Assembly (NCBI GenBank): GCA_963575645.1
Contig: OY754466.1
Coordinates: 41,820,001-41,884,000, forward strand
Direction: 5' to 3'
From: Xanthostigma xanthostigma
Lineage: Eukaryota > Arthropoda > Insecta > Raphidioptera > Raphidiidae
DNA length: 64,000 nucleotides
Shown here: one piece after another, positions 2,856 to 54,536 of the stretch
Numbering within the stretch: position 1 is the first letter of the stretch
Layout of the letters: every line of letters begins with the position of its first letter
Program-made: the position numbers and the translations under genes
Notes under the pieces: model-generated
Databases searched by the model: none
What the model saw: only the letters and a program-made list of their open reading frames with translations
What the model was told of the DNA's origin: nothing

Positions 2856-3520
2856 AAATAAAATTGTCGACCAATTTTTCTCAGACCTTATATTGACAAA
2901 AAATAATAAAAATACAAATCAATAAAACACAAGATGACGTTTCGATCCGGATTTGGATCTTCTTCAGAAATATAAAAATTAATTAGTATTAAGTTATTTA
3001 TTATCTAATAGAATTCACGAAAGATTGAAAGTTTGAATAATTCAAAAAATTAATGAAAAATTAATAACAAACAAATTTTATAATACGTAGTCATGGATAT
3101 CAAAGTACCCATAAAGAAAAAATTATTTGAAAAAACAAAATATTATTTCAAAATAATATCATAAATATTACTTAAATTTTTCGGTTCTATAATAATTGAG
3201 CATTAAGAGAGTTTTTATTAGATTTTATATATAACATTTCTGAAATACTTCTTCTAAAATAATTAGTTTCATTATCTAAAATTTTAACACTATCCCAATT
3301 AATTTTATGTCGTATTCAATTTTATGCTTAGTTACGACATTATGTTTATCAGGGAGTAGTTTATGATTGCTTTGATGTTCTTTAATTCGTGTTTTAAGTG
3401 CTCTTTTTGTTTGCCCAATATTATTATTTTTTTTGTCAATATATGGTCTGAGAAAAATTGGTCGACAATTTTATTTATTTGAAGAGTTCTGAAACGAGCT
3501 CTATTCTATCAAAGATTTGA
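2856..3520 (-). mobile_element. Penelope-like retroelement, internally deleted, 14-bp target duplication
   Basis: A 665-bp insertion flanked by atacaagattacat at 2842-2855 and 3521-3534. The ends carry inverted copies of ataaaattgtcgaccaattt. On the minus strand, roughly 3420-3190 translates, with frame breaks, to KRALKTRIKEHQ, then NVVTKHKIEY, matching the C-terminal part of Penelope-like proteins after the GIY-YIG endonuclease core. A hammerhead-like motif lies at 2935-2967. The reading frame is broken, so the copy is dead. Its right end lies only about 170 bases from the acceptor at 3690. Confidence 0.8.
2935..2967 (-). ncRNA. Hammerhead-ribozyme-like motif in a Penelope-like element
   Basis: On the minus strand: CUGAAGA, one A, a GAUCC/GGAUC hairpin, GAAAC and GUCA. 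Box order and stem II fit a hammerhead with a two-base-pair stem III. Flanking bases give no convincing stem I in this copy. Confidence 0.4.
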
Positions 3521-3689
3521 ATACAAGATTACATCTTCCACACTTTGTGATGTAGTTCCCCAAATCTGCTGCTCTCTAAAATTTGCCGCTCTAGTATATT
3601 CTGTCTATTACTAAATCTGTCACTGGCCGGCAAATCTAATAAAAATGCATTATGTTCGATCATTATTAATTCGTTATTTATTATATCAG

Positions 3690-3854
3690 AGGAAGTGATA
3701 TTAGCGGAAGAAAGAACGACTGAGGAAGAGAAAATGCACATAATGGAGGCAAGAAGAAGGGCCGCGGCCAAACGGAAGAAGTTAAAGAACCTTGGCAAGA
3801 GTAAAAGCACCGACACTGAGGAGGAAGAGCAAGAAGAAGAGCTCGGAGATGACG
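3690..3854 (+). CDS. cac: Exon: distal I-II linker, charged segment
   Basis: The acceptor ttatatcag precedes base 3690 and the donor gtaagt follows 3854. Joined to the previous exon the reading is EEVILAEERTTEEEKMHIME, then ARRRAAAKRKKLKNLGKSKS, then TDTEEEEQEEELGDD and a final G of the next codon. This alternation of an acidic start, a basic RRRAAAKRKK centre and an acidic tail is typical of the insect Cav2 I-II loop. The length is 165 nt, phase 1 on both sides. It is cytoplasmic and has no membrane segment. The minus-strand open frame over the same bases is only a shadow of this exon. Confidence 0.93.
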
Positions 3855-4164
3855 GTAAGTGATGTCGGTCTGAAACGTTTACATTCTCTACGACCACACG
3901 TACATACATACAAACACAAAATACACGTGTACACTTTTTAGACAACTTGTTTTTATTATCGTTATCATAAAGTGAATGAACAGAAACAAAAACGAGTGCG
4001 TTATAGTGGGTAGAATTTATGTTTCAAATTTGTTTGTTTTTTATATAATAGTTAACTCTGCACCGTTACAAACAGTTTTTTTAATATGTGATTTATGGAG
4101 ACATATTTTTAGAGTTTCTTTGTTTTTGAGAAATACTATTTGTATTTTAAACATGCGTTATTAC

Positions 4165-4682
4165 TAGTGATGTGCCGGATATCCGTATCCGCGGATATCC
4201 GAGGGAGAAGAAAGATCCGTATCCGTATCCGTTAGTTTTTGGAGAATCTTTTACCTTATTAATTTTCAATTCATAGATGAAATTTTATATATATGATTAG
4301 GTAATAATGAAAAACTGTTAAATTCCACCTAGATTATTTTTTATTTTTTAAAACCGTATTTGGCACCTTTATATTGCAAACATTTATCGTAGTGAGTCCC
4401 ATGCCAATAGTACATAACTCAAAGGTACTAAAAAACTATCTTTTTAATGAGATATTGCACATCGATCTTTGGAAAAAGACAATCTGTTACGAGAGTTAAC
4501 TCTTAAAGAGGCCAATAACTTTTTCCCGTAACAGATAGTCTCTTTCCAAAGGTCGATGTGCAATATTTACCGCCGCGTACTCTAAGAAAGTTAAGATCCG
4601 TATCCGCGGAACTTGAAACCAAATATCCGTATTCAGATCCGTATCCGCGGATATACATTTTTAACGATCCGGCACATCACTA
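4165..4682. mobile_element. hAT-like non-autonomous element, 8-bp target duplication GTTATTAC
   Basis: Terminal inverted repeats TAGTGATGTGCCGGAT and its complement are flanked by GTTATTAC at 4157-4164 and 4683-4690. An 8-bp duplication and TAGTG-type ends are hAT characteristics. The interior is a second inverted repeat (atattgcacatcga and ggtcgatgtgcaatat, about 4450-4567). It has repeated tatccgtatccgcgg units near both ends. No transposase is encoded. Confidence 0.85.
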
Positions 4683-5672
4683 GTTATTACTAAATAATGC
4701 ATTTTTCATTAATTAAAAGACACAATATCAGATACCACGTGATACAATATCAAATATTTGAGCATTCAATTAGTATTTACCGTGAAACTGAAATGGCCAA
4801 ACCTAAGAGAAATTACGGTATAAGTGTAGTTTTTTTGGAATTTTTTGGAACTTTTTTTCGGTTACAGACATCACACGATCAGTTCTTACAATATTTTATT
4901 AAAGAACCCCGCACAAACTTTATGGGATTTGGTTCTCGATTAAATTGATGAAAAATGGTATTATGTTACAGTTTAAAGGTCACAAAAGAAAAAGTTTCCA
5001 TGGGCGCATAGCGTTGATAAAATATTTTGAGGGAGCTACGATATTTGACATGTTCAACCTTTTGCCAGACGGAAGTTGTCTTGGGTACGAATGACAGACT
5101 TGAGTTTTTGGGCTCAAGGGCACCTGAACTTATCGTTCAGGAAATTTCAAACATGATAAAATATGTATTAAGTGGCACTTCCAGTTTGACATCTTTGACC
5201 GGGTCTACCCACGCATTGTCCCCAGTCTCAGCTGCCAGACTGCGGTGTTCAGGGTAGTTCCCTTAATGAAAAAACTCAGGTTTAAAATCGTCACTAGCTC
5301 CCCTAACTATAAGAACGTCTTAGAATAACCCCGAAATTTCGAAAATGTAATTAGGGAATAAGGAAAATGAAAAACTGCGAACAGATTGCAGTTTTTCTTC
5401 ATTAGTTTTAGTTATGCGAACATGTAATATCGGAAAAAATCATTTAAAAGATTGTTTGTAACTATGCAGGTTAAAGTTAGCGTTTCTTAAATTCTACAGT
5501 AGTGATTTTTAATTACATTTAGAGTACCATTTTCAAGAATTAATGTTTTAAAAATTATATTAATAGCGATTTTATTTAGTGAGAAGTATTTTAAAGGATT
5601 TTTTAAAAATATTTTGTTAATCTGCACTTTAGAGTGTTCCTGTTTTTTTAATGAATCTGATGTTTATTTCAG

Positions 5673-5693
5673 TGCCTAAGAAAAAACTGAAAG
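5673..5693 (+). CDS. cac: Candidate 21-nt microexon in the I-II linker
   Basis: Twenty-one bases are bounded by an acceptor (tttatttcag) and a donor (gtatga). Phase is 1 on both sides, exactly what is needed between the exons at 3854 and 12711. Included, it would insert PKKKLK with flanking V and G codons into the linker, giving [18 protein letters not shown]; skipped, the flanking exons join directly as [11 protein letters not shown]. The basic peptide suits its setting. With so few bases, chance occurrence of splice-like ends in an 8.8-kb intron is possible, so this remains a candidate optional exon. Confidence 0.4.
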
Positions 5694-6009
5694 GTATGAA
5701 AATAAGATGGTTGCGGTGTCCCCTCCTCTCTACTGATATGATGTAAACCTATTGCACTTATTTATATTTTTAATCTATTTTATATTATGTCTTATCAACA
5801 AGGCCAGTTGACTTATATCAGATTTTTGGTAAAATCAAATTTGTACCGGTTGTTCATTTCTCGTTACAATATAAAGAGACGGTACTGACGACCACTTGAC
5901 TTGAGACGCTTTCGTGCTGCATAACTATCGTGAACGAATCGAACTTTTAAACAAAAACGTAAAAGTGAAATGTAAATAAACTCGATATTTATTTTTTAGA
6001 TTTTAAATG

Positions 6010-7195: not shown

Positions 7196-7539
7196 TTGAC
7201 CTTAGCGAATAAATATCATCGGCTATCCTTCCGTTGCAGCGATAAATTAAGTACCGGGTAACCCATGCGACTATTAATAGGACATTTTATACATTTTAAG
7301 TCACTATTTTTTTCTTTAGAACTATTTGTGTGTAGATAAAATATTGTTGCATAAAATAGACCAAAAAAAAATTTTTTTCTATATGAAAATATGAAATACA
7401 AAAATTCGATATAAAGAATTTGGCTTTGCAGCGACAATTATTTTTAGATTTTACTAATTTTCTTTTTATTATCCCACATAACAAACAGCATAGTTGTCAA
7501 AATAGTGTCCTAAAAAATGTCAGATAATAAAACAATAGA

Positions 7540-12923: not shown

Positions 12924-13050
12924 GTAAGTAATTCCAACTTGAGATATTTGGAAATGTTATAAATCAATAGCGAATGATATTTATAACTAGTCGAAACATG
13001 TCCACGTAGGACTATGTCTATATTCTCAGATGTGTGCCACTTAGTTCGAC

Positions 13051-14835: not shown

Positions 14836-15317
14836 GTCAGTAATTATGAATTATTTTTCAGAGAATTAAAAGTCACTTTTCGATTCCCTACAATTTTTTT
14901 TCGTTTTAATCGTTTCATATTCGAGTCGTTTTATTGATTTGTTAAAAAATGGAGGAGCTACAAAAAATATCTAGCTTGCATTATTAGCAATTAGGCAAAA
15001 TTAATTAACTCTTGTTTTTTTTCCATTTATGATTGATTTATTACAGTTTTTATTTTTAATTAATATTTAAGTAAAGAATATATTCATTACTAGAGACTTT
15101 AAGAATAATGTTTACAGAATTCAAGATTCACTTTTATTTAATAAAATTATGAAAGAATTGCGGTCAACTGCAGTCTATTTTACACTTGAAAATTGATTTC
15201 CAAAACACTTTTATCAATGTAAACCAGAATTGCATTGGATACAAAGAACTGACACTTAAAGCAAATTGTTGGAAAATACATTCTTCATTGAAACTTTGAT
15301 TATTTCCATTTGCGCAG
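14836..15317 (+). other. Short intron in the domain II pore loop
   Basis: 482 bases of AT-rich sequence; nothing recognisable. Confidence 0.8.
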
Positions 15318-15733
15318 ATTTTGACAGGTGAAGATTGGAACGAAGTAATGTATTACGGTATCGAATCACAAGGTGGCTACAAGAAAGGCATGATATATTC
15401 GTTGTATTTCATCATTCTCATGTTATTCGGTAACTACACTCTGCTGAACGTGTTCTTGGCTATCGCCGTCGACAACTTGGCCAACGCGCAAGAACTGACA
15501 GCCGCCGAAGAGGAGCAAGTCGAGGAAGACAAAGAGAAACAATTGCAGGAGCTCGAGAAGGAGATGGAAGCGTTACAAATGGAAGGTTCGCCGTCTCGAG
15601 GAGATTTCGTTCCGTCGAGTCCGACCAAAGGCAAGAAGAAAAAAGATGGAAAAAAAGATGATGATGATGAAATCACTGGACCAAAACCAATGTTGCCGTA
15701 TTCAAGCATGTTTATATTTTCATCTAATAATCC
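15318..15733 (+). CDS. cac: Exon: domain II pore glutamate, IIS6 and II-III linker
   Basis: The acceptor tttgcgcag precedes 15318 and gtaagt follows 15733; 416 nt, phase 0 in, 2 out. [20 protein letters not shown] contains the domain II selectivity-filter glutamate (TGEDW). IIS6 is [31 protein letters not shown]. The linker follows: [20 protein letters not shown], a predicted coiled coil, then [20 protein letters not shown] and [15 protein letters not shown]. The linker is short, about 100 residues to IIIS1, as in insect Cav2, and lacks the long synaptic-protein interaction region of vertebrate Cav2. A 91-residue minus-strand frame over it is a shadow. Confidence 0.97.
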
Positions 15734-16216
15734 GTAAGTTATTGCGTCATGATGTTATTTAGTCGATGATCAAAAAGAATACTTTTCTGTTCAATTACAT
15801 TAAATGGTGGAGATGTTGAGCATCTTGTAATAATATCACAATTCACAAACATGATTCAAACAGAGATATGGCATTATTTTTTCCCGTCATTTGATTCTAT
15901 TTAATTCACATAACGTTCCATAATTAATTTGATAATGGCGCACATAGCCCCTTATTTAAGATGAACGGAGATTGTCATGCAATGGTTTTGTTCAAAATGC
16001 CATATTTAACGCATAGGACATCTAACTAACTGCAATCTAAGTGTGTAGGCTTTCACGGCCGGTTTTGATCCAAATCTTCTTGGTTTCTGGGCTTGTATGC
16101 CGTGGTCCATTGGTATTAATAATTAATTGGTAGTAATACCAAGGGACCACGGCATACAAGTCCGGAAACCAAGAAGATAACTGCAATCTGATTAATGTTC
16201 AATTGTTTTTTTGCAG
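15734..16216 (+). other. Intron between II-III linker and IIIS1 exons
   Basis: Its 3' half carries the fold-back insertion at 16039-16177; otherwise ordinary intron. Confidence 0.8.
16039..16177. mobile_element. Small fold-back retroelement derivative, 12-bp target duplication
   Basis: 139 bp flanked by TAACTGCAATCT at 16027-16038 and 16178-16189. It begins aagtgtgtaggctttcacgg, and its remaining part is an inverted repeat (atcttcttggtttctgggct and gtatgccgtggtcc with complements). The long variable-size target duplication and head-to-head structure fit a Penelope-type derivative. It ends 39 bases before the IIIS1 exon. Confidence 0.75.
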
Positions 16217-16519
16217 AATACGTAGAGCAGCTCATTGGGTGGTAAACTTGCGGTACTTTGATTTCTTCATAATGCTAGTGATAACCATGAGCTCAATAGC
16301 TCTGGCGGCGGAGGACCCCGTCGAGGAAGATTCAGACAGGAACCAGGTCCTCAACTACTTTGACTATGCCTTCACCGGAGTGTTCACCATCGAGATGTTG
16401 CTCAAGGTCCTTGATTTGGGCATCATTCTCCATCCGGGCTCGTATTTGCGCGAGTTCTGGAATATTATGGATGCTGTCGTCGTCATTTGTGCCGCTGTTT
16501 CGTTCGGATTCGATATCTC
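16217..16519 (+). CDS. cac: Exon: segments IIIS1 to IIIS3
   Basis: The acceptor tttttttgcag precedes 16217; the donor gtaagc follows 16519; 303 nt, phase 2 on both sides. It reads [20 protein letters not shown] and [19 protein letters not shown] (IIIS1 and loop), [20 protein letters not shown] (IIIS2, acidic E and K kept), [20 protein letters not shown] and [16 protein letters not shown] (IIIS3). The sequence agrees closely with remembered insect Cav2. A small fold-back insertion ends only 39 bases upstream of the acceptor (see 16039-16177). Confidence 0.97.
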
Positions 16520-16958
16520 GTAAGCTAATCCTATTCATTTACACACTATTTTGTCTATGTTTGTCGGCGTAAAGTTGATAATAATCTAAGAATCAAACCA
16601 TGGAGAGCCCAAGGAGAAGTCCGAACATTGATTATTATATATCATGGGTAAAGAGTCTGCCTCGCACACAGAAGGTAGCTGGTTCGATTTCGCTCAGCTC
16701 CATTAATATGTTGTTGTTTTTTTTTTTCAAACTATTCTGTATATGGATAAAATATTCGAATAAGAAATAGTCATATAACATTTTATGAGAACAAAATACG
16801 TATAAGCAATTACTACTATTTATAATAGGTACGGTAATAGACTAATAATCTTAAGGTCAATCTTGCATGTCAACCATCTAACCATCTGGATAGAAAATAA
16901 ATGAAGTAAAAATGCAAATCACGAAAAAAGCATGTCAGTGATTATTATGATTCATACC

Positions 16959-17392
16959 ACCGAGCGAGGTGGCGTAGCGGTGAGAGCACTAGACTCACAT
17001 TCAGGAAATACCGGGTTCGAATCCCGGCGGGGGCAGATTTGGCTGGGAGTTTTTCCCACTGCCTCTCGCCGAGAAACGGCAATTCCTGTACCGGCCATCT
17101 TGTTGAGGTTTTCCATGGTTTCCCTCAACAATTCCAGATAAATATCGAGATGGTTCCTTATTCAAGGCCATGGCCGATTACCTGTCAAACTCCTATGCTC
17201 AAAATTTGCCTACCTTATCCCACTTTCCTAAAAATTCCTCCATTCGCCCATTGCTATTAATTAAGTGGAAGTTTAAAAAATGTAGAAAATAACGGGAAGT
17301 GTGGCAGAAAAAAATAGTAATGGTGCGAATGGCGTCTGTTATGACATAAAGTCGAGAAACGGACGTTTAATTCATTGTTATTATTATTATTT
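16959..17392 (+). mobile_element. tRNA-derived SINE with 14-bp target duplication
   Basis: 434 bp flanked by TTATGATTCATACC at 16945-16958 and 17393-17406. The head carries Pol III boxes: gtggcgtagcggtgagagc (A box) and ggttcgaatcc (B box). The body is GC-rich, and the tail is a TTA microsatellite. The acceptor stem does not fold, so it is not a functional tRNA. Two short frames inside it are not genes. Confidence 0.88.
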
Positions 17393-18195: not shown

Positions 18196-18360
18196 TTTTA
18201 ATAAATAAAATTATCGACCAATTTTTCAGACAAATATATTATCAAAAAATATAAAAATTAATACATTAACGTTTCGGTCCGGACTTGGATCTTCTTCAGA
18301 ACTGATCTAAAAAATATAAAAATTAATTCATAATTAGTTTCTAATTGGTTTTTGAAAAAA
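18196..18360 (-). mobile_element. Penelope-like terminal fragment
   Basis: It carries ataaaattatcgaccaattt at its left edge, like the complete copies at 2856, 24131 and 30725, followed by the motif taacgtttcggtccgg. A hammerhead-like motif on the minus strand spans 18267-18299: CUGAAGA, A, GAUCC...GGACC, GAAACGUU. The right boundary is unclear. Confidence 0.65.
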
Positions 18361-18445: not shown

Positions 18446-18476
18446 AACGTTTCGAAAAATATATTTTCATCATCAG
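18446..18476 (-). ncRNA. Hammerhead-ribozyme-like motif, CUGAUGA core
   Basis: On the minus strand: CUGAUGA, U, GAAAA/UUUUUC hairpin, GAAACGUU. The following GGCC pairs with the preceding GGUC to make a four-pair stem I. It sits in a repeat unit shared with 1370 and 46157. This is the copy closest to the textbook core; cleavage is untested. Confidence 0.5.
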
Positions 18477-18759: not shown

Positions 18760-20568
18760 TTTATACAGTATGTAAACGCGTAAGGTGCATAGGGAAATTA
18801 GCATTGGGAAAAAATACTTGGATCAGAGTTAGCCATGACTGCATTAATTGTTATTTCTATTGAATTATCGTGGTAATCTTGAGGATTTCCATTTTATTTT
18901 GATTTATTTTTATTTTACTTGACTTTTTTAATAATAAAAAGCTCTTATATATCATTATTTTAATTTTTTTGTACAAAAATAAAACAAAAAAACAACTCCA
19001 TCTGTTTGGAAACATTTCATTCAAAAATTGTCTGACTGGTAGTGACGTATGCGCGTTGGTAAATCAGTGACCCAATGTCTTTAGGTTTAACACGAATAGG
19101 CGGAGATATTTGATCTCGCACCATATTTAAGTATTTTTAGGAATTTAATGTCCTATTAATATAAAAAGTCCGATTATGTTGTAATCATTTGAGTATTTTC
19201 TTCGGTAGTTAGTTTAGTCAATGAGTGCTCATAAGGGGCATCTAGATGGAAAAGTCGAAAGCAGAACATTTGACTTAGGAACTTTGTTTGGACTAGTTAG
19301 GAGATAAACATACTAAAAGTCCTTGCCCCTCTGAGGTACGCCCGAAGGGGGGGAGCACAAAGAAGGTCCCGTTTTTTGGTTTTTTGCTTTCATCTCGAAA
19401 ACGGTACGTCGTACGAAATTTTGTTGTAATACATAATGAAAGCTGATAAAATTCTCTACAACTTTAGCTTTCACACTTTTTATCTATCTCTAATCTTTGC
19501 CTAGCTATGAGCTCCGAAAAATGGTCGATTTTCAAAAATGTGTTAAATTCTCTGTAGCACATTGTAACAATACGAATTTGTCAAAATCATTTCGTATCGC
19601 TCATCCAAACTATTAAAAACACCCACACACTATTAAAAAATAACATAAGCTTTAACCTATTGAAGGCCCTGGGCACATTAGGATTATGGGGCCCCTATGA
19701 CCTTAACAGAGCACTATTTTGTTAGAATAGACAAAGAAAATAGATAAACAAGGTTCTAGATTCTAAGTCGAGGAAAGTGATATAAAATGCATATATTTAA
19801 AAGGATCACGTTCCCAATTTTAACATGAAGGACACAAAAAAAATAAGTATATGAAAAATAGTTCACTGATGATTTTTGTTTAAAACAGTTTAGGTACTTA
19901 GTATACCATTAAACTAGGGGGTCCCTATCGATCGCGGGGCCCTGGGCACGTGCCAGAGTGCCCAGTGGGAAAGAGGGCCCTGTGTGGAGGTACTCCCAGC
20001 TTATGTTATTTTTTAATAGTGTGTGGGTGTTTTTAATAGTGTGGATGAGCGATACGAAATGATTTTGACAAATTCGTATTGTTACAATGTGCTACAGAGA
20101 ATTTAACACATTTTTGAAAATCGACCATTTTTCGGAGCTCATAGCTAGGCAAAGATTGGAGATAGATAAAAAGTGTGAAAACTAAAGTTGTAGAGAATTT
20201 TATCAGCTTTCATTATGTATTCCAACAAAATTTCGTACGACGTACCGTTTTCGAGATGAAAGCAAAATACCAAAAAACGGGACCTTCTTTGTGCTCCCCC
20301 CCTTCGGGCGTACCTCGGAGGGGTAAGGACTTTTAGTATGTTTATCTCCTAACTAGTCCAAACAAAGTTCCTAAGTCAAATGTTCTGCTTTCGACTTTTC
20401 CATCTAGAATTATTCGTTGCTTAAGCTAAGTATACACATTCATTTTGCAAAAGAATATTATCTGTCAAATTGAAAAACAAGATTTCAAGGCTCACTCTGA
20501 TACAGTCATTTTTTCCCAATGTTAATTTCCCTATGTGCACCTTACGTGTTTACATACTGTATATTTAT
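18760..20568. repeat. Nested fold-back of 1.8 kb
   Basis: An outer inverted repeat, acagtatgtaaacgcgtaag and ggtgcatagggaaatta, pairs with 20513-20568. Inside, a second pair of about 410-bp arms runs from tctagatggaaaagtcgaaa (19241) to its complement at 20408, with few mismatches. The 345-bp centre (19653-19997) contains ggccctgggcac at one side and gggccctgggcacgtgcc at the other, a third, smaller element. No coding region. Confidence 0.85.
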
Positions 20569-23304: not shown

Positions 23305-23469
23305 AAATCGTGTATAGACTTTACAATTCAGGCGCGTCCATTGGAGCGATATATGCCAAGCAAGAGGAAAAGCGTCAAGTACAAAATATGGCAAGTCGTG
23401 GTCTCGACACCTTTCGAGTACTTCATCATGATGTTAATTGTGTTCAATACTATACTGCTGATGATGAAG
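23305..23469 (+). CDS. cac: Exon: III-IV linker and segment IVS1
   Basis: The acceptor ttttgttctag precedes 23305; the donor gtatga follows 23469; 165 nt, phase 0 on both sides. It reads KSCIDFTIQARPLERYMPSK, RKSVKYKIWQVVVSTPFEYF, IMMLIVFNTILLMMK. The first part completes the III-IV linker (KSCIDFTI-ARPLERYMP) and FEYFIMMLIVFNTILLMMK is helix IVS1. Longer open frames in this interval read another phase and are shadows. Confidence 0.96.
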
Positions 23470-24130
23470 GTATGACGAAACGTTCACATTATTATACTAA
23501 TCAACGACTGTATCTCTACTCCGCGCTGCCAATGCAATTGAGAACTATTATTTATTTTTTTTATAAACATTTGACAATTATTCATTTCTCAACGGCTGAT
23601 TTATATGATTCTACGTATGAAAAAACTGTTATTGGTTTTGATTCATAAACGATAAATGCGTTCAATAATCGTGTTTGTAATGGGACTTGGCCCGCTTTCT
23701 TAAAATTGAAGCTCTTACTTTATTTATGAGAAAATTTCCAGTTAAAATTTCTGTTAATGCGTACGATGACACGGGTAACGACTCACTTTTAATAATACTG
23801 ACCAATGAAATTGATGGATTTCATTGCAACTCGAATGTAACGTTGTCGCGATTTATTTTTTGTTCATATTCACTCATACTACGTGTAATAATATGTATCT
23901 TATATTGGTTTATACTGTACCAGAGTAGAAGTCTTGGTACAGTCGACGTTGCTGCTCTCTTATTGGATATATGTAGTAAGGAAAATACTTTTGTCTACAA
24001 TTGGATGCCTCCAATTGCATTCTGACCCCAGCCAATAGAGGTATTACGGTAGGACGCAGCTAAGACATATGCCAATGAACGAAGATAAAAAATGTGATCG
24101 TTCTTTTTGTTTAATATGGTTAAGATGTTC

Positions 24131-24404
24131 AAATCTTTGATTAACGTCTGATTAGAACTCTTCAATAAATAAAATTATCGACCAATTTTGTTTGTTATTA
24201 TTTTTTCAATATTTATATTTTAAAAATATCTATCACGAATTCCATTCAAAGTAAATAGAAACTAATTATTAATTATTTTTTTTATATTTTTAGATCCGTT
24301 CTGAAGAAGATCCAAATCCGGATCGAAACGTTAATGTATTAATTTTTTTTATATTGTTTGTTAATATATTGTCTGAAAAATTGGTCGATAATTTTATTTA
24401 TTGA
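24131..24404. mobile_element. Short Penelope-like copy, 15-bp target duplication
   Basis: 274 bp flanked by ATGGTTAAGATGTTC at 24116-24130 and 24405-24419. The left end, aaatctttgattaacgtctg, and the inverted ends ataaaattatcgaccaattt match the family at 2856 and 30725. The hammerhead-like motif at 24301-24333 is inside. No coding remains. Confidence 0.85.
24301..24333 (+). ncRNA. Hammerhead-ribozyme-like motif in the short Penelope-like copy
   Basis: CUGAAGA, A, GAUCC/GGAUC hairpin, GAAACGUU. The following AAUG can pair with the preceding CGUU (one G-U), giving stem I. The UH cleavage position would be the second U of GUU. Confidence 0.45.
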
Positions 24405-27400
24405 ATGGTTAAGATGTTCCTGAGTTACCAACAGATAACTCCCAATCAGAGTTAGCTTATTTTAGATTCCCATTTTCTAAGCTGTACAATGGACTGAAAA
24501 CTTAGCCGGAAGTTTTGAATTGCGATATTATTATTGACAACGACGTTTTCTCATAAAATAGGAATTCGGCGATAATATAACGTACATATTATATAAGCTA
24601 TTTGATGATGTAATAAAAAATTTTGTTTAAAAAAATAGTTTCTCTTTGCAATGGCCAGCATTAATTCGTAATAACAGAATTTTAAGAATAATTAAATGGT
24701 ACAATAATTTGATTTAATAATATATAAAATAATAATTATATCAGGTATAGGTACCAATTTCAACCGAGAAATAAGAAAGACAATTTTAAAAAAATGTTTT
24801 TCCATTTGATTTTTTTATTTTTAACTTAGTTCAGTATTTACGTTTAATTTTCAAATATTTTTTGTCATTATACTGCATGATTTTTTAGAAACTTTGGAGA
24901 TTTTTCTTTAAAAAATAACGGATTGTATAAAAAAAAGTTAGAACGAAAGTTGTTGGGTTTCGAGGGGAAAATCGCCACCACCTCCCCCCTTAGCAGGGGC
25001 GGTGACCTTTGATTTTTAAATGGGAACCCCCATTTTTTATAGTCTTTCTTATTTTCAGGTTCCAATTATAACGTAATAATATTATTATTCTACCTAATCA
25101 AATATTTCTTAATAATGACACACACGCCTAATACATACATACACACATACAAACAGTTATCTCTCTGTCTTTGTTGAATGTTGCGCTGCTTTAAACTATC
25201 TCTTTCTATCTATTTTCTCTCTTTATCTCTCTGATCACGTCTCTCTTTCAGTATAATGGAATGTGTAGCACTTTGCCGTGTTGATTTGTTCTTCTTTTTC
25301 TTTCTTCAGATATTATGAAGATAATGAATTTGTGTTTTTGTCACTCGCAACACAACATGAAAAAAGTCTATAAAAAGTGCATAAATTATCTTTTTTTAGA
25401 ACTGGTCGTCGATAAAAGAAGTTGCGATCAGAATGTGAATTTTATGTTTTAATTTTGTCCAGATGTTAGATATTACCTTCATAGAGAACAATCTGACTTT
25501 TTGTTTGAGACAAAATTTATATGTATACACGTACTTTTGATTTTGAAGATTTTTAACAATCGGTACGTTATATTATATAAATTTTGTCGTTTGTAATTGT
25601 ATTCCTTGAACAGGTTTTTTTTGTAGTAAGGATGTCAAGCATTTTTGAAGAAAATGTCCCTACTTTTTTGTAAAAACCATATTTTTTTTAATTAAAATTG
25701 CTCAATACTTTTCAAACGAAATAATGCATCTTATTTCTTAAGCATGCTGGAATAAATTACTGATCCAGATATCTTTGCATTTACGTATATCAAGTAAAAC
25801 AATTGCATGTAAGCTTTCTTACATAACCTCAATTCCAACTATCTATGTAGACGATGTGACATAACACACTCTGTACTGTAAACGTCGTTACAAACAACCT
25901 GAGAAGTCAGTATAGAAAGATTTAAAATCTAGCTGAACTTTTTAATAAATACGTAAATTATAATTAGTCGGAGCTCCTACCGTACAATAGTCTACTGGAC
26001 AACTCTACTAAAATTCCATTAATGAATTTAATACATAATACGACGGAAAACATTAAATTGATGGCAAATTTGTTTAATTTGTTTTATCATTTTTTATTGT
26101 CACTATCTCAAATACGACTCAACACTACCTACTTGATAAAATTTGTACAGATTATAGGAAAGTATCGGTTATTACCATTTATCTTTGTCTGCCTTCTATT
26201 TTTTTTGCGTAGATACCTAGCAGCCCTCGTTCTGTCAATTGATAAATTTTTAGTATGAGGTTTGCCAGATATGCAAAAAAAATGCAAGGCAAACAACGAA
26301 TATTGTAAATCATTAGTTCTCTATAATCTCTAAAAACTCCATCAAGTAGTGTGTACAGCCTTTTTTGAAAAAAATTTAATCAATCTGAAACCAATTTTGC
26401 GTTTTTCATCCTATTATTAAATTCAATAATAAAATTTCATCGTGTAGTAGACTTTTGTACAGTGTGATCTTGGACTAATTGCCAAGATTTTAAATCTAAG
26501 ACTCAACTTTTTGTGAATACAATAATAATATCCATCATTTTAGTGCACTTGCATGCTAGCATTCACGAATAGTATAAGCTTGGTTTTCAATTTTACAATA
26601 AAAAAAACTGATCGCACCCTTTTTTCTTTTTATATGCTTTATACAAATGCATTGTGCAAAAATATATGATTAAAAAACACACAGTTTGAAATTACTAAAT
26701 GAAATATGTAATATCGAAACACACCTCACGATTTTAAAAATAAAAAACGCATGCGTGTATGTTATGTATGTGTGAACCGTCATTTAATATATTAATCGTC
26801 CTTTATTTTTTGTGCAATTTCGTCTGCACCATTTGAAATGGTTACTAAATGTGAATGGTCTACGGTGTTTGTTTTTATTTTTTTTTTTAATGTTTGTATC
26901 AAATTTATCCAAGATTGTTCCTATTTAAACATTCATAATATAAATTATTACACCTGTTCGATTTTCATATTATGAAAAATCAATTTATTTATTTTTTATT
27001 AATTTTTTGTTGGAGAGTTATTTTGTTTACTTTACTACTGATATTTGATTGTTGTTTATTAATTTGATTTACTTGTCCCGCCGACTTTATTTTCAATTAT
27101 CATCTTAACGTTTGTTCAAATATAACATTAATTTGCGTTTCTAGATTAGATTAATGACGTCTTAATCATAAATAATAAATATTTTGTGCCTGAAGTACCT
27201 ATCTTTTTAATCTCGAATTGAAATATTTTGTTTTTTTCAACTATAAAAAATAATATAAAACCGGCTTACACGTTCATCTTTTATGAGATAATTCGTTTTA
27301 TAATTCGATTTTACGAGAAATTATAATTTTTGTATCGATTCTGCACAAAAATTGCTAAGGTAGTATATTCATTATAGATGCCAGAGAGCTAAATTTGAAA

Positions 27401-30361: not shown

Positions 30362-30523
30362 ACAATAAATAAAATTATCGACCAATTTTTCAAAAAATTA
30401 TATTGACAAAAAATATAACTAACTTCAATAAATTTTGTCAATATAATTGTCTGAAAAATTGGTCGATAATTTTATTTATTGACGAGTACTAATCAGACGT
30501 TAATCAAAGATTTGATTACCTCA
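30362..30523. mobile_element. Short Penelope-like fold-back copy
   Basis: A near-perfect palindrome of ataaaattatcgaccaattt and its complement, with loop aatataactaacttc, followed by the family end gacgttaatcaaagatttga. A weak target duplication starts ttacctc on both sides. Confidence 0.7.
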
Positions 30524-30724
30524 ATATCATTGTAAACAATGTGAAAAATGACCATTACAGAAAAAAATGGGCTGGAGAAAAAGCTATGGATCTGTGGATT
30601 TCCATTTCAAACAACAGTCGTGGTTGCTTCACGACTGTGGCGCCACATGTAATATGTTGTGTTCCTGAACTACATTGCCTCTTTGATAGTAGGCAACTTT
30701 CCATTTAAAGCTTTTTCCCCCATG

Positions 30725-31137
30725 AAGTAAATAAAATTGTCGACCAATTTTTCTCAGATCATACGATATATTGACAAAAATGATAAAAATACAAATCAAT
30801 ATAACACAAGATGACGTATCGATCCGGATTTGGATCTTCTTCAGAAATATCTAAAAAATATAAAAATTAATTAGTATTAAGTAATAGATTTAACGCAGGA
30901 TTGAAACTTTGAATGATTAAAAAATAATGAAAGTTTCAATCCTGCGTGAAATCTATTACTTAATACTAATTAATTTTTATATTTTCTAGATATTTCTGAA
31001 GAAGATCCAAATCCGGATCGAAACGTCATCTTGTGTTATATTGATTTGTATTTTTATCATTTTTGTCAATATATCGTATGGTGTGAGAAATTTTATTTAC
31101 TTGAAGAGTTCTATTCAGACGTTAATCAAAGATTTGA
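30725..31137. mobile_element. Penelope-like head-to-head copy, 13-bp target duplication
   Basis: 413 bp flanked by TTTTTCCCCCATG at 30712-30724 and 31138-31150. Two terminal blocks of about 170 bp face each other and are almost identical, each with the cgatccggatttggatcttc motif. The right end again reads cagacgttaatcaaagattt. No coding is left; it looks like two terminal repeats with the body lost. Confidence 0.85.
30996..31028 (+). ncRNA. Hammerhead-ribozyme-like motif (right arm of the head-to-head copy)
   Basis: CUGAAGA, A, GAUCC/GGAUC hairpin, GAAACGUCA. A mirror copy on the minus strand at 30812-30844 has one change in the GAAA box (gtatcg), which would kill it. Stem I is not convincing here. 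Confidence 0.4.
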
Positions 31138-31339
31138 TTTTTCCCCCATGCCTGGAAAATTCTGAGACATAAGGACAGCCCGTTTAAAATGGAATATGTG
31201 GGTCTAGTTAACTACTGCCAAATACGAGATTGGGACAGACGGCGCCGAATTTTGCAAATAACTGGAGGAAATTTTTGACAGAATACGTAGCAATAGGATC
31301 AATAAAAAGCAAAACTGAATTTAAAATGGAATTTATCAC

Positions 31340-31371
31340 TAACGTTTCGATACACTTTGTATCATCTTCAG
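31340..31371 (-). ncRNA. Hammerhead-ribozyme-like motif, independent family
   Basis: On the minus strand: CUGAAGA, U, GAUAC/GUAUC hairpin, GAAACGUU. The following AGUG pairs with the preceding CGCU to form stem I (one U-G). The stem sequences differ from the 2856 family while pairing is kept. Confidence 0.5.
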
Positions 31372-32712
31372 AGCGTTACGAAACATTATAGTCATAAATG
31401 CAATTTTAAATTCAGCATTGCTTTGATCATATTGCCACGGATTCTTCCAAAAACTTCCTTCAATAGTTTTCATGGATCACAATTGTTCTATTTGCTCAAT
31501 GAGTCAACGTCATATTTTGCAAATAATGTTTTACTTATAATTGACGGCAATATTTTGATTAATAGTGGACGATATTTTTATATGAACACATGCTAGTGAA
31601 ATTACATTTCTCTCGAGAGAAGGTTATTTAGTTACGTCACTAATCATAAGAATTCTGGAAACACCAATTGATAAGTAAGTATTTCTTCTCTGAAAACTTC
31701 GTATAAAAATGTGTTAAATTTAATATTATAATTTTTGTTCTCTTAACAGAAATGAAAACTGTTATAATTTGATGTAGATTTCGTTACCTTCATTTTATAA
31801 TTTTGAAATATTCATTTCATTTTTTAAACTTTTCTTTTGGTTTATACAAAACCATTTTAAGTATACAAATCCTTTTCATTTCCACAACTTTTCCTTAGTA
31901 TGACCTTGTGAAGTTTGAAATAGCATGAAGCATGTTTGCTTTCTGAAATGTCTTTTATGTTATTTGCATGGATTTAGTGCTTTGCTATGTATTTTTTACG
32001 TTGCATGTGACAGCATGCTGCGAGCTCTAGTTCTGTACTTGACATGCAATTTGCTAGTTATGTGTTTTTGGCTATTATTTAACTCAGATTTCAACATCTT
32101 TCGTAAACTTACAGAATATCTATTTATGTTTAAATTTCTTATATTCATAGTTTTCAAAACTGAATGGCTAATTCAGTAGTTTTGCATGTAAAAAATTAAA
32201 CTTAAAAAAAGATTAGTTTATTTATTTATTAGATGCGGCCATTATGTATTAATTCTGAGAATGAATTAGTCATTTTTTTTTTATTAATTATTACAATATA
32301 CATATTTTTACGCATATACAGTAATGCTCTGACATTTTTTGTGACGCTCGTCTTTAATCTTGAATAATTGGAAATGAAACTCGTTTTGTCGCCGTAAGAC
32401 TCAGATGACAAACTTTGCGATTATTAAAATCGTGGATCTAGACCAGTGATGTCGAAGATACGGCCCGCGACCGGAATCTATCCAGTGAGGATTTTAGACA
32501 CCTGGCATCAATGAGCTTATCAAAAACAATAGACTTCAGGTGTCTGGATCCTCAAGCTCATGATAATTTACCATTTTTATTACCTTTATATGAAAATTGA
32601 TTTAAACTAAATAAGTGAATAAAGATTTTAGTTTAGTATGTGTTTTAGTTTTTAACTTAGAGTCTAGCCCGCTAACACACCCTAATTCTTGTAGAAAAAT
32701 CAGTCTGATACC

Positions 32713-43997: not shown

Positions 43998-46109
43998 GTT
44001 GGCAACCCTATATCCATAGTTTTCGATAGCAGACAGGAATTTTGATGTAATGGATAACACTTTCAGAGCGAAACTGGAGGATTGGGATAAGAACTTGAAG
44101 ATGATGTGTGTACAAAACTATTGAATTGTATTATAACTAATTATAGTCACTTACCTTATTTGGGACTGTTTTTTAAACAAAAAAGAGAACATCTCAGAAC
44201 TATTTAAATGGACGTCCGTGTGTTTAAACGAAAGTTACCAAAATATATCCTGGCAAATTTTTTAATATTTTCCCACCGTTTGGGGGAAAATATTTGTTTG
44301 AAATTTAATAAGTTAATACATTTTTATGCATTTTTCGACAATTTTTTCAAGCATAAACAAGTCATATTATTATATAAAAAAAGTTGGGTTAAATATTATT
44401 TTTTTTTGTACCTATATATTAAATGATAAATAACAAGAAGATGCTAAAACAGTAAGCACATTTAATGATGAGTAAATAACCTGACAATTAGGGATCTTGA
44501 AACCGTAATTTTAAGATTATTCGAATCCTTCTGAAAATGAATTTCTGATCAATTGAAAAATCATTTGTATAAAATTAATTATAATTTAAAATATATATTT
44601 AGGGTTCTTGTGGCATCACAATAGTGTCACAATTTCGCAATACCTATAGTACTGTATTAAGCCGGTATGGCATAAAACAGTCGATAGTTTTAGAAACACA
44701 ATAATAACTGTGGTAGGATACATATCCGTGGGAGAATTCATCTCCCCCAAATGCAGCTCTGGTCATTAACGCACCCTGGATCGCTGCACAAGGGGGGTGG
44801 TAGCGCTCGTTTTGAGAATCACTGCTGTATACAAATATAAATTAATTAAAAAAACTTATTGAAAGAATTAAATACATTTTAATAGAGATGCTGGAAACAA
44901 AAAATAATATTATTTTTATTTGAAACATTATTTAATTGGCCTTATTTGTTTTTTATTGGGCCGAAAGTATTTAGTTACTGCATAAACAACTAGTATTCTT
45001 TTATAGTAACGTAACTGTTTCCTGTAGACTCCGAATACAGTTACTGAAAATTATTAAATTGCTTTTAATTTTAGATTAGTTGCACGATTATAACGAATTA
45101 ATAACATAGTCAGTAATTTATTTTTTCTAACCTGAAACCAATCCACAAATTGTTATGTAGTAATTCTTATTTTTTTGTTGATTAACAAGTGGAATGTTCT
45201 TGTGGGAAATTTTTTCACTAACAATGATCTTATCCTTTGATTTTTTTAAAAATAAATATTAAACATAATAACGAGATTCTGACTCGGCTACGTAAACTGT
45301 TTAACTCGACAACTGAGATAATTAGCGTTTATTATTACTAAAATCCTAATTGAAAATGAAGATACATATATTTTTGATGCAGTAAAACTCCAAAATTATT
45401 GCGCCTAAATCACTTCGTTCTGATTTAAAATAAGCTCAAAAATTATTTTTGAAGTCACTTGTTAAATAGCGTTTTCGCTAGTAATGTTAAACAAACCAAT
45501 ACCTACGTAATGCCAATTTTTTCTGTCAAAAATCAGTTAGTTTGTTGGTTAGTAAACAAGATTTTTAAATTTTGGCCTAACGTAAATGAAAGTGATTTTT
45601 TATTATAAAATTTAATTTCTGATAACTGATTTCAAAGTTATGGCAGAAATTTTATTTTTTTAATTTTATTTCCTCATAAAAACATCTCAATTGTTATGTA
45701 GTTAATTGCTAATTTTATATATTATATTTTTATTTTGGTCGATCTGGAATACACCTCTTTGATTTGCTGTTAAGGTAATAATGTTTCTTTCAACAGAAAA
45801 AATGTTTTTTTTTCGTTTTATTGTCTGACTATATTTTAAGGTAATCACGTACAAATATACCATTTTGAATAATAGATTATTACCTACACGTAAAATTAAT
45901 AAATTGACTAAATCTAAAATAAATTCCTGGCGATTTTTAAAAGTTTCGAAAATAAATATAGTTAACCGTTTATATAAAAGAAGATTATGATCGTTAAATT
46001 TTTAAAAATCTTAACCCACTCATTTATAAGAAAATCATCTTGTATATTTTAATATTTTAGGTTTAAATTAAAATATTCACTTCACAAATGTACCATTAAA
46101 AATAATTGA

Positions 46110-46440
46110 AGGAGATTTATTTCGTTCAGGTACAATTGAAAAATAAGCTTGTGGCCAACGTTTCGAAAAATATATTTTCATCATCAGGACCTCAATGCAA
46201 GTTGAGATGGTAAATTGTGCAAATTATAATAATTTATTTATTATGAATTTCAACAGTTTTTATTTTTAAAAATATTACATTTTTTTAAAATTGTTTTGTC
46301 CAATGTGAAAATAAATATTGTACTGATGATGAAAATATATTTTTCAAAAAGTTTGCCACAAGCGATACTCTGGTAAAGATTATTTTTAAATTGTTTAAAT
46401 AACCAAATAAATCTCCTTCAATACATATTTTTGGAACAAA
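46110..46440. mobile_element. Fold-back retroelement fragment, related to 18384-18500
   Basis: ttgaaggagatttatt at 46108 and its complement aaataaatctccttcaa at 46408-46424 face each other. The left arm contains gtggccaacgtttcgaaaaa and the hammerhead-like motif at 46157-46187 (minus strand, CUGAUGA core). The right arm carries a decayed copy (gatgatgaaaatatatttttca). Confidence 0.65.
46157..46187 (-). ncRNA. Hammerhead-ribozyme-like motif, CUGAUGA core
   Basis: Essentially the same as 18446-18476: CUGAUGA, U, GAAAA/UUUUUC hairpin, GAAACGUU, with GGCC/GGUC stem I. Confidence 0.5.
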
Positions 46441-50992: not shown

Positions 50993-51233
50993 TATATATC
51001 GCGTCTTAAACGTGAAGCCATTAATATAAAATTAAATGTAAGAATACGAATTATGAAGGCACACATTAAAGATTATTCAGTTAACTAAGCTGCTGATTAA
51101 TTATTTCAATTGCTTTACGTATTTTTGCGCGCAATTAAGTATTAAAAAACACATAGGTACTCACCACTAAATTTTAAAATACGGCAGCTTAGGCAACTGA
51201 ATGCGGCCCATTTTAATTTCCATAAGCAATATA

Positions 51234-51809
51234 GCCAGAGTGCCCGTCGGCAAAAATTTTATTGATACATACTCTCCCCAAACTTTGTATATGGCTTCAT
51301 TAGGCCTAGTCTGACACCTATTTCCTTTATGACTTTTCTTGATTTTGGGGCGTTTTCCCTCTAAACTTTCCGAAAGATGTCGTTTTGACGACATTTAAAA
51401 ATTTAGAGATACTGTTTGTTTTTTTAATTGGATAGCTTAAAAGCTTCAACCAAAACGCTAAAATAATGTTCTCTGACAAATAACATGAACCATTTAAAAT
51501 GTCTGACACCTCGAAAATGGTCGACATATTCGAGGTGTTAGACATTTTAAATGGCTCATATTATTTGTCAGAGAACATTATTTTAGCGTTTTGGTTGAAG
51601 TTTCTAAGCTATCCAATTAAAAAAACAAATAGTATCTCTAAATTTTTACATGTCGTCAAAACGACATCTTTCGGAAAGTTTAGAGGGAAAACGCCCCAAA
51701 ATCAAGAAAAGTCATAGAGGAAATAGGTGTCAGACTAGGCCTAATGAAGCCATATACAAAGTTTGGGGAGACTATGTATCAATAAATTTTTTGCCGACGA
51801 GCACTCTGA
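51234..51809. mobile_element. Near-perfect palindrome coding for the same peptide in both arms
   Basis: Two arms of about 285 bp meet at the centre near 51520 (aatggtcgacatattcgagg). In both arms an outward-reading frame begins MSSKRHLSESLEGKRPKIKK and continues SHxGNRCQTRPNEAIYKVWG (minus strand from 51394, plus strand from 51650). A second pair, MSxTSxMxxIFEVxDILNGS, reads across the centre in both directions (51545 minus, 51499 plus). No domain recognised; probably remains of a transposon gene. Confidence 0.75.
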
Positions 51810-52192
51810 CTAATATGCTTACCTTTATAAAAATGCTGTGAATATTAACTCGCTTATTGCTATGAAAGTTGTTCAAAATATTAAAGAATTTTAAGCAGGA
51901 TTATTCTAATTCTATTTGTACAGATAGATTAATCAAGGGCGTAGATGGGGAGGTAAAGGGGGTAATTACCCCCCAGGATAATAAAAATAAAAAAATTAAA
52001 CTGAAAATAATACCAGGCTGAAAAAAAAACTTTAATACTTCTTGAAAAAAAATTTGTAAAATTGGTTTGAGAATATTGTTTTTCTTGACACTAAATGAAA
52101 TAGTTATATTCTAAAACTTTTTTTGTTTACATTTTTTTAACTGACCAATCATTTCAAAGTGTACAAACTACAAATGTTCATTTTTAAGTTGT

Positions 52193-52575
52193 AACACCAC
52201 ATCTTAAAAAGCCACGCCGCCACTGGTGTACTCTGGTGGTCATGTGAAGAAACAGTGGCAAAATGACAGCGGAGCGTATGAACTAGGAAGTAGCGTTCAT
52301 GTTAAAAAAACTTGAATTAATAAATGTGTTGAATTAAATAATATTCATTTTACAAACTTACGTTAATAAATATGTCGAATAAAATAATAATAATTGTTAC
52401 GTGGGGCGCCAGTTTGTAACAATTATTATTATTTTTTTCAACATATTAATAACGTAAATTTTTTAACATGAACACTACTTCCTAGTTCATACGCTCCGCT
52501 GCCATCTTGCCTCTGTTTCTCTACATGACCACCAGAGTACACCAAAGGCGGCGTGACTTTTTAAGACGTGGTGTT
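52193..52575. repeat. Fold-back element with about 180-bp arms
   Basis: The arms start aacaccacatcttaaaaagc and include gtgtactctggtggtcatgt and gagcgtatgaactaggaagt, repeated in reverse complement. The centre contains tgttacgtggggcgccagtt, an end-like sequence of unknown origin. Just upstream, 51940-52180 carries an a-rich region with no clear origin. Confidence 0.8.
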
Positions 52576-52925
52576 GCAAAGTGTGCCCAAAAATCGGTAT
52601 CCTATCTGAGATTTCGTTTTTAATAATAGAATAATTCTGCTTTCTATTTAATTATAAAATTTGGAAAGAAAACTGTAGTCGAAAACATTGCTCTTTTGAC
52701 TTTTGTAGTCGCCATATTGTAAATTTTATGTGTTTAACAATCTTTGGTAGAAATAAAATGATGTATTTTTGACTAACCTGACCTTGAGCTACTGAAAAAA
52801 GCTGAGTTTTATTAATCAGTCTTTGTTTACTTGCTCGAAAAAACAGTATTGTAGGTAATTAATAAGTAATTAAGTAATAGAGTTGTTTACTGCGTGATCA
52901 TATCAAAATACCCTAAGGTTACCTT

Positions 52926-53333
52926 AAGGTCGCTGTAACCGAGGTTGCTTTTTCCGCTGGAATCACTGCTAGGACTTCCGTGCTGGCGTGATTACAAGCT
53001 GGATTTCAAAATTAGAACTGGGGCTATTTTTCGTGCATGCTTCACTGCTGGCTCTGGTCAAGAACCAATCAGAAAACAGTATCTTGTCACGGGGACGCCA
53101 TGGGCAAACACCCACAAACTAACATGACGTCATAATGTGTGTTCTGTTCAGAGACAATAAACGTTCACTTGTGTTAACATTCGAATTGTTTTTTGGGCAC
53201 CAAACCCATCTGTAAAGCCAGCTTCAAAACACGCATTGTGTGAAGTGAACACAAAAATTGAAATCCAGCGCCAAAGCACGCTTGAAACCTAACAAGAAAC
53301 ACAGTGTCAAAATCAGCCTCTTGTGGAGCGACC
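52926..53333. mobile_element. Miniature inverted-repeat element, copy 2
   Basis: Same family as 22023-22437, with ends aggtcgctgtaaccgagg and cctcttgtggagcgacc. Diverged, and without a frame of its own. Confidence 0.75.
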
Positions 53334-53394
53334 GTTACGCTTGCTAGTCTAAAAATATATTTTAAGTAACTTTCTATATATCAAGCTTATTCCA

Positions 53395-53731
53395 GAATGA
53401 AAATAGGAAGAAATCTTTTTCAAAAAATTTGTTAATTTATATATTAAGCGCTTTCGGGAGATTTCAATCTATCTACAGAATAGTTTTTTTTTTAATTAAA
53501 ATTATCATAATAAATTAAAAGTAAAAGTTAACACTAAAAAGCACAATGCAGATTGGCTGCCCATAACAAACACAGCCAGTCTCTAATGTGTTAATTTTTC
53601 CTTTTAATTTATTATGATAATTTTAATTATTTAAAAAAATAAAAACTATTCTGAAGATGGACTTATATGTCCGAAAGCGCTTAATATATAAATTAACACA
53701 TTTTTTGGAAAGGATTTCTTTTTATTTTCAT
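53395..53731. mobile_element. Head-to-head retroelement derivative with a hammerhead-like motif
   Basis: The arms gaatgaaaataggaagaaat through ttaatttatatattaagcgc face each other around a centre with ttaaaagtaaaagtta. The right arm holds the motif at 53651-53680; the left-arm counterpart has decayed (gcgctttcgggagat). Confidence 0.7.
53651..53681 (+). ncRNA. Hammerhead-ribozyme-like motif, divergent family
   Basis: CUGAAGA, U, GGAC/GUCC hairpin, GAA then AGC/GCU (three-pair stem III) and U. The following AAUA pairs with the preceding UAUU to form stem I. All three helices differ in sequence from the other families but keep pairing, which argues for selection on structure. Confidence 0.5.
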
Positions 53732-54020
53732 CTGATATTTCCCAATTTATGGCGTATTTGAAAAGTTATTAAAAAATATTAAGTATCAAACTGATTTGTT
53801 CATACAAAATCTTACCTTACACATTTTGAGCTGATAATGTCAATATTTCTTTGACTTTTGTTAAATACAACAGCCCTTGCCTCGCAATCATTTGACAGAT
53901 CCGCCGGATGACGTCAACCCTCACCACTATCCAACGGACTCTCTACTCTACTAATCTTGCGTAAAACATAATTCCTCTTTTTTAGTTATATATACTACCG
54001 TATAGAAAATTTTAACGTTG

Positions 54021-54536
54021 GAAGATTAAAGGATGAATCCTAGTGGCATAGAATCGATGAACTAAGCAAATACTGAAGGTTTTTTTTATTGCATTTTATT
54101 GTCTGACGTTTCGGCAAACTTTATGTCATCTTCGGAGAATCAATGCAGTCTGTTTTCTCAGTATTGTTGTTATGTACAAAATAAATTAAAATAAAAAATG
54201 TCATCAACGGGTATTAAAATTACTATTTTTCTTGAAAAAACGACTGATTTTTACTGAAAATTGTATAACTGTATCAAGTGTAACTTGCTTTATACAATTT
54301 TCAGTAAAAATCAGTCGTTTTTTCAATAAAAATAGTAATTTTAATACCCGTTGATGACATTTTTTATTTTAATTTATTTTTTACATAACAACAATACTGA
54401 GAAAACAGACAGCATTGATTCTCCGAAGATGGCATAGAGTTTGCCGAAACGTCAGACAATAAAATGCATTAAAAAAACCTTCAATATTTGCTTAGTTCAT
54501 CGATCCTATGCCACCAGGATTCATCCTTTAATCTTC
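54021..54536. mobile_element. Large fold-back retroelement derivative of 516 bp
   Basis: The arms (gaagattaaaggatgaatcc, attttattgtctgacgtttc, ctcagtattgttgttatgta) match in reverse complement over about 240 bp with few differences. The centre is caagtgtaacttgc. Each arm contains a GAAACGUC-box motif; that at 54423-54454 has CCGAAGA in place of CUGAAGA. It ends about 290 bases upstream of the IVS4 exon. Confidence 0.85.

Follow-up and report, generated by a model that had tools for sequence, protein, structure and literature searches.

Does the short motif that recurs among repeated elements of the insect Xanthostigma xanthostigma encode a hammerhead ribozyme, and what carries it? We addressed this in a window of 64,000 nucleotides (assembly GCA_963575645.1, contig OY754466.1, positions 41,820,001-41,884,000 of the forward strand), for which a preliminary description had listed nine hammerhead-like stretches in several retroelement families. 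Our analysis indicates that the motif is very probably a minimal type I hammerhead, located in the pseudo-long terminal repeat (pLTR) of Penelope-like elements (PLEs) with a GIY-YIG endonuclease. Its A9 and stem II are separated by a single unpaired base; it would cleave as a dimer, and it occurs mostly in head-to-head insertions.

All nine stretches were verified in the window at their original coordinates and strands (Table 1). The core described for them, CUGA(A/U)GA and GAAA, is present at eight; the ninth, 54423-54454, reads CCGA in place of CUGA, as does its mirrored copy. A strict pattern (CTGANGA, one base, a hairpin with 4 or more uninterrupted pairs, GAAA) matched the window seven times against 0.04 expected from 150 first-order Markov simulations, and the same pattern with 0, 2 or 3 inserted bases gave no window match in any case. 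The two listed sites not caught by the strict pattern are 18267 and 54423. Mirrored or decayed copies beyond the initial list start at 30812 (-), 53447 (-), 54104 (-) and 46323 (+). A looser pattern gave eight window matches, one of which lacks stem II; this near-match at 23458 on the plus strand, CTGATGATGAAGGTATGACGAAACGTTC, lies inside a 121-aa frame and is taken as chance.

We searched the 623-Mb genome of the same species with the looser pattern CTGAWGANGN{5,20}CGAAACG. This returned 15,310 matches (7663+7647), a mean of one per ~41 kb, against 8 (3+5) for a reversed control. The equivalent pattern with no inserted base gave 198 matches against 12 in its control. When 100 of these 198 were listed, 39 fitted with one insert (an extra G), 15 fitted without an insert and 46 fitted neither register; 3 of the 15 pair almost as well with the insert. 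Taking 15% of 198, we estimate that ~30 genome copies lack the insert. The single extra base after CUGANGA, already described as constant, is thus found in all nine window sites and is nearly fixed genome-wide, and the canonical rule that stem II directly follows A9 is broken at each of the nine. Its identity varies. We took flanking sequence for the first 100 genome places, which all fall within the initial 6 Mb of contig 1, and for the window, giving 107 distinct sites. Of these, 65 have A and 42 have T as the extra base, which is U in window families 2-5 and G in further families. What is conserved is that a base is inserted, not which one. Because the genome search pattern itself prescribed CUGAWGA and GAAACG, the constancy of these core letters in this sample provides no independent evidence.

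The stems were examined in the same sample. An uninterrupted stem II of 4 or more pairs is found in 84 of the 107 sites, compared with 22 of 239 background matches to the one-insert pattern listed from IMG/VR (at least 120) and GTDB contigs (at least 119). These 22, among the matches listed, comprise 17 from IMG/VR and 5 from GTDB; none has an inverted partner nearby, and we treat them as background. For covariation we used 100 sites in all, made up of sites picked for stem II, extra-G sites and window families 4 and 5, with overlapping loci kept. Compared by their first and last 4 nt, the stem II arms of this set form 14 different pairs (a few closely similar), including GATC/GATC, GAAA/TTTC, GATA/TATC, GTCG/CGAC and GTTG/CAAC, and further GGAC/GTCC, GCTA/TAGC, GTGT/ACAC, GCTG/CAGC and GTCA/TGAC. 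The claim that stem II varies yet stays paired thus holds amid many sequences, with one mismatch at 18267-18299 (GATCC/GGACC). Stem I, which played no part in site selection, is paired at its first four positions at a rate of 0.722 over 53 distinct contexts, compared with a shuffled mean of 0.491, and none of 2000 shuffles reached as high a value. Stem I pairing, said to occur in most families, is therefore above shuffled expectation overall; it fails in the commonest subfamily, as described below.

The very short stem III of the preliminary description did not survive inspection. There is no intramolecular stem; instead, GAA is followed by a loopless palindrome (ACGU or AGCGCU). This position is palindromic in all seven strict window sites (6 ACGU, 1 AGCGCU), where no letter after GAAA was fixed, and all seven carry the pairing partner U16.1. 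It is palindromic in 105 of the 107 sampled sites (103 ACGU, 2 ACGAUCGU), for which the pattern had fixed ACG, and in 92 of 98 pattern-chosen, stem-bearing loci fetched from the same genome and recounted without fixed letters. Because the palindrome has no loop, stem III could form only between two copies, and the occurrence of different palindromes at one place points to such pairing. The H17 base is T in 71, C in 31, A in 3 and G in none of the 105 palindrome-bearing sites. Varying yet paired stems II and I, together with an H17 that is never G, support a hammerhead-like architecture.

The preliminary description placed the motif in Penelope-like elements. In the window, unit A (2856-3520) contains two pieces of a GIY-YIG endonuclease between its arms. 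The 63-aa piece has a weak Pfam match and no homologue in a word-based search, and a PDB search with a 139-aa piece gave no match. The unit A endonuclease sequence recurs in open frames upstream of the motif at two other genomic loci (L252 and L253), where shorter frame pieces score 20-21 bits for GIY-YIG in Pfam, just under the cut-off of 22.6. Relatives of the endonuclease pieces include proteins of Cataglyphis niger (ant) and Polistes exclamans (wasp), and in the former a YVDD reverse transcriptase motif precedes GIY-YIG. At a third locus (L362), one frame of 685 aa combines reverse transcriptase and GIY-YIG motifs (YVDD and IGQTKR), and the hammerhead-like motif lies ~185 nt (about 185-190) downstream of its stop codon. 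The motifs LPKIHK, TNIP and YVDD are typical of PLEs. Of 7992 scored candidates, 621 proteins match the frame at E <= 1e-10, and nearly all of the 120 relatives listed contain RVT_1 and PF26215, some with GIY-YIG. NCBIfam gave weak group II and retron reverse transcriptase matches below cut-off, and PDB gave only weak matches, the best a phage neck protein followed by reverse transcriptases. GIY-YIG beside the hammerhead-like motif, the related reverse transcriptase frame, head-to-head copies, a one-sided tail and target duplications show that family 1 is an endonuclease-carrying PLE. Its motif lies in the pLTR and lacks helix III in window unit A, L252, L253 and L362. For families 2-5 we infer a PLE host from the motif and the architecture.

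Seven of the nine window motifs lie in, or at the centre of, a head-to-head inverted unit, the exceptions being 18267 and 18446. The inverted arms of unit A (2854-2914 and 3419-3478) are flanked by a 14-bp direct repeat (2842-2855 and 3521-3534), and units B and C have flanking repeats of 15 and 13 bp. Direct repeats as long occurred in 0 of 300 random stretch pairs for A, 2 of 300 for B and 0 of 300 for C; a significant flank repeat was not found at the remaining six of the nine palindromes tested. In units A, B and C a tail piece is present on one arm only. It ends AAAGATTTGA in A and C, and the tail of B has the same end within two letters. In family 1 the outer ends recur whilst the inner junctions vary. 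Among the first 100 genome places, neighbouring motif pairs within 1.5 kb are outward-facing in 20 of 22 cases, direct in 2 and inward-facing in none. In a count of 110 sites, some entered twice through overlapping loci, an inverted repeat covers the motif with its partner upstream in 64, downstream in 1 and with the motif at the palindrome centre in 8; in 9 the repeat is confined to the flank of the motif. We infer that the palindromes arose by bidirectional extension; self-priming is preferred in PMC3846280.

What would this architecture mean for cleavage? We folded five window palindromes as RNA in the sense orientation. In four, the motif nucleotides are paired to the opposite arm (32/33, 32/32, 30/31 and 22/31), and in the palindrome centred on the motif only 2/32 are so paired. 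Because of this pairing, read-through transcripts of palindromic copies are predicted mostly not to cleave, and direct pairs such as C1:2084809 and C1:2085183 could do so. BLAST found an inverted mate for 73 of 99 sites. The 5' ends of these mates lie >60 nt before the predicted cut in 58 cases, 6-60 nt before it in 2, within 5 nt of it in 1 and downstream in 12. The sample is biased, since a site was admitted only if one arm or both had the motif intact, and arm ends were approximated by the ends of the alignments. Within this motif-chosen sample, the 58 mates running >60 nt past the cut and the single mate ending there suggest that the copied RNA had rarely been cut at the motif, and with one mate of 73 within 5 nt we reject cleavage as the definer of insertion 5' ends. 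Rare cutting agrees with the PLE of Anolis (PAc), in which unprocessed RNA is the main substrate in vitro and the hammerhead cleaves only when the PLE protein is present (PMC11167929).

We propose the following model. Two motifs, in tandem direct copies or in two RNA molecules, would pair through the palindromic ACGU-type stem III. Cleavage of the paired motifs would follow H17; it would be slow and might require the protein of the element. Both cut DNA strands would be extended from the same kind of RNA, giving the head-to-head insertions that make up many genomic copies and most window copies. In such a copy a single hairpin would usually hold both the sense and the antisense motif, masking the ribozyme.

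Several observations weigh against a hammerhead in PLE pLTRs. Stem II has fewer than 4 contiguous pairs in 23 of the 107 sites, 6 of the 98 own-genome stem-bearing sites scored with no letters fixed lack a stem III palindrome, and 28 of the 110 sites have no inverted partner. In subfamily 1a (2935, 30996), the commonest, a single pair of stem I is in register; family 5 carries C at core U4, and the best single-strand fold of family 3 is a competing hairpin. The covariance-model check put forward in the preliminary description was negative: the Rfam hammerhead models gave no match in the window at gathering or at E<=10, and two short stretches and eight test loci searched at E<=10 were likewise without a match. 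Pfam found neither reverse transcriptase nor GIY-YIG in the 685-aa frame at E<=10. Finally, no coding sequence was seen in families 2-5 when searched by short signature patterns only.

One alternative is that the motif is a structured RNA landmark, for example for PLE protein binding or placement of reverse transcription, which retains a hammerhead-derived fold and is no longer catalytic. The absence of an intramolecular stem III, the want of an in-register stem I in the commonest subfamily, the nearly fixed insertion in the core and the single mate among 73 that ends at the predicted cut all fit such a landmark, as does the insertion of the Anolis PLE in vitro, which did not require cleavage (PMC11167929). 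An H17 that is never G in 105 sites and U16.1 in 7/7 strict window sites speak against a landmark, and a related PLE hammerhead does cleave with protein (PMC11167929). We consider a landmark unlikely, if worth keeping in mind. The fold could also be no object of selection at all, the likeness being due to the recent shared ancestry of a few repeat families. One stem II, GATC/GATC, is indeed shared by 36 of the 100 covariation-set sites, but pairing is retained across many stem II arms and stem I sequences, and stem III shows several different palindromes, which makes this explanation scarcely credible.

The palindromic units could alternatively be DNA transposons, either foldback elements or miniature inverted-repeat transposable elements, that carry the motif by chance in their inverted repeats. 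These repeats are 65-94% identical, several units have no coding sequence seen, and six of nine tested units lack a significant flank repeat, as might suit such elements. The family 1 units, in contrast, combine variable inner junctions with recurrent outer ends and a one-arm tail, their target duplications vary in length (13, 14 and 15 bp), and PLE endonuclease sequence is found within unit A as well as ahead of the motif in L252, L253 and L362. From the junction, tail and flank-repeat evidence of these units we reject the DNA transposon reading as highly improbable. The motif might also be kept as the start of the PLE protein, with the extra base creating an AUG (A9-U-G); the Anolis PLE frame begins at stem II (PMC11167929), and the extra base is U in window families 2-5. 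Yet it is A in 65/107 sites and G in further families. Among 63 related proteins of at least 800 aa, drawn from 139 relatives and with predicted start positions taken over from the source records, a peptide of the expected type occurs within the first 45 residues in only 3. From the identity of the extra base and these protein starts we reject the start codon for family 1 and as a general cause, and hold it very improbable elsewhere. The minimal hammerhead of a PLE remains our preferred reading.

How does this hammerhead relate to known systems? Minimal PLE hammerheads were reportedly described by Cervera and de la Pena in 2014 and by Lunse, Weinberg and Breaker in 2017, as cited by others. 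Minimal type I hammerheads without helix III, in PLE pLTRs and in thousands of dispersed copies, are known (PMC7761336, PMC6155905), and a paper title cited in these two sources reports their cleavage as dimers. Their activity in vivo and role have been called a mystery (PMC7761336). The elements described here share with them the pLTR location, the thousands of copies, the lack of an intramolecular helix III and palindromes suited to dimers. They may differ in the unpaired base that is nearly fixed here after A9 and before stem II, a comparison made with the published motifs by description only. No statement of a fixed one-base insertion in PLE hammerheads was met in the excerpts of the literature surveyed, a survey outside which the primary minimal-hammerhead papers lie. 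The motif type is therefore already known, and its variant with one fixed base is possibly new.

The host elements also resemble characterized PLEs. The Anolis PAc protein cuts and extends both strands, and two internal start sites define the tail (PMC11167929). The PAc frame starts at stem II, whereas the extra base in family 1 is A, giving no AUG, and the motif lies ~185-190 nt past the upstream stop. In the Penelope of Adineta vaga the pLTRs are inverted head-to-head with palindromic junctions, and one pLTR can bear a 31-bp tail (PMC3846280); the family 1 units have the same arrangement with a one-arm tail of ~35 nt. Target duplications are 8-10 bp there and 13-15 bp here, many pairs here are very short, and PMC3846280 never uses the word hammerhead. 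Metazoan non-LTR (long terminal repeat) retrozymes likewise carry type I hammerheads in non-coding animal retroelements (PMC7761336, PMC7229834), but as direct tandem repeats of ~150-300 bp with canonical hammerheads, unlike the mostly inverted pairs here. With 20 close pairs inverted and 2 direct, and a core that is not canonical, we reject identity with these retrozymes. De la Pena and Flores are said to have reported in 2001 a viroid hammerhead with an extra core nucleotide, reportedly placed after A9. In one viroid hammerhead an extra core nucleotide weakens cleavage (PMC11014351); it is a natural variant with a single added nucleotide, in one ribozyme compared with thousands of copies of multiple families here. 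One- or two-base insertions between CUGAnGA and the stems are implied in known alignments (PMC10085705), and the core insertions described in the excerpts of PMC3088659 sit at other places.

Other features of the window set the elements in context. Frames at 15300-15737, 16137-16523 and 54704-55096 resemble exons of a voltage-gated calcium channel alpha-1 subunit, and the retroelements would accordingly be intronic. A 411-bp inverted repeat with 98% identity (19241-19651 and 19998-20408) is perhaps a recent transposon pair, and a 400-bp palindrome at 52189-52579, 80% identical to its own complement, has no listed motif. A tRNA-like match at 16969-17028 (30.1 bits, model positions 7-64 only) is possibly a pseudogene or part of a short interspersed element. 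Rfam microRNA-precursor matches below cut-off (58798-58969, 1351-1444 and the palindromes of the loci) lie on inverted repeats and look like palindrome artefacts.

Table 1 Hammerhead-like motifs and Penelope-like insertions in the 64,000-nucleotide window.
Feature	Position	Strand	Remarks
Family 2 palindrome, each arm with only the 3' half of the motif	1309-1486		
Family 1 PLE insertion, unit A: motif arm, GIY-YIG remnant, truncated opposite arm with tail	2856-3520	-	
Hammerhead-like motif, subfamily 1a	2935-2967	-	sequence match, strict pattern
Next endonuclease piece, other frame (INWDSVKILDNETNYFRRSISEMLYIK...)	3190-3315	-	150 matches scored of 2082 genome candidates
PLE GIY-YIG endonuclease remnant (IGQTKRALKTRIKEHQ...)	3276-3467	-	GIY-YIG score in Pfam 14.7 bits, under the cut-off of 22.6
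Hammerhead-like motif, subfamily 1b, one mismatch in stem II	18267-18299	-	inverted partner not found
Hammerhead-like motif, family 2	18446-18476	-	strict pattern; inverted partner not found nearby
Family 1b PLE insertion, unit B, head-to-head, left-arm tail	24131-24404	+	15-bp repeat 24116-24130 and 24405-24419
Hammerhead-like motif, subfamily 1b	24301-24333	+	strict pattern
Short head-to-head family 1 insertion, arms stop before motif, right tail	30363-30517		flank repeat of 7 bp, non-significant
Family 1a PLE insertion, unit C, 94% palindrome, each arm with a motif, right tail	30725-31137	+	13-bp repeat 30712-30724 and 31138-31150
Mirrored motif, left arm of unit C	30812-30844	-	GATA replacing GAAA
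Hammerhead-like motif, subfamily 1a	30996-31028	+	strict pattern
Hammerhead-like motif, family 3, centre of palindrome 31263-31462	31340-31371	-	strict pattern
Hammerhead-like motif, family 2, left arm of palindrome 46098-46432	46157-46187	-	strict pattern
Decayed mirrored motif, family 2, right arm of palindrome 46098-46432	46323-46353	+	
Decayed mirrored motif, family 4, left arm of palindrome 53397-53731	53447-53478	-	
Hammerhead-like motif, family 4, AGCGCU palindrome at stem III	53651-53681	+	strict pattern
Mirrored family 5 motif, left arm	54104-54135	-	CCGA too
Hammerhead-like motif, family 5, in palindrome 54010-54547	54423-54454	+	core U4 replaced by C

What might a fixed extra base do for these elements? 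As a tentative and rather doubtful idea, the insertion may be a derived state fixed in a whole lineage of PLE hammerheads, which would slow the core, leave the RNA uncut while it serves as template and confine cutting to the dimer or to the presence of the PLE protein; copies that practically never start at the cut site would be its footprint. The present variant escapes the Rfam models tried, and its ~15,000 genome copies allow the core, the stems and the natural insertion ends to be counted. The one-base insertion in the core is tolerated or selected across many families.

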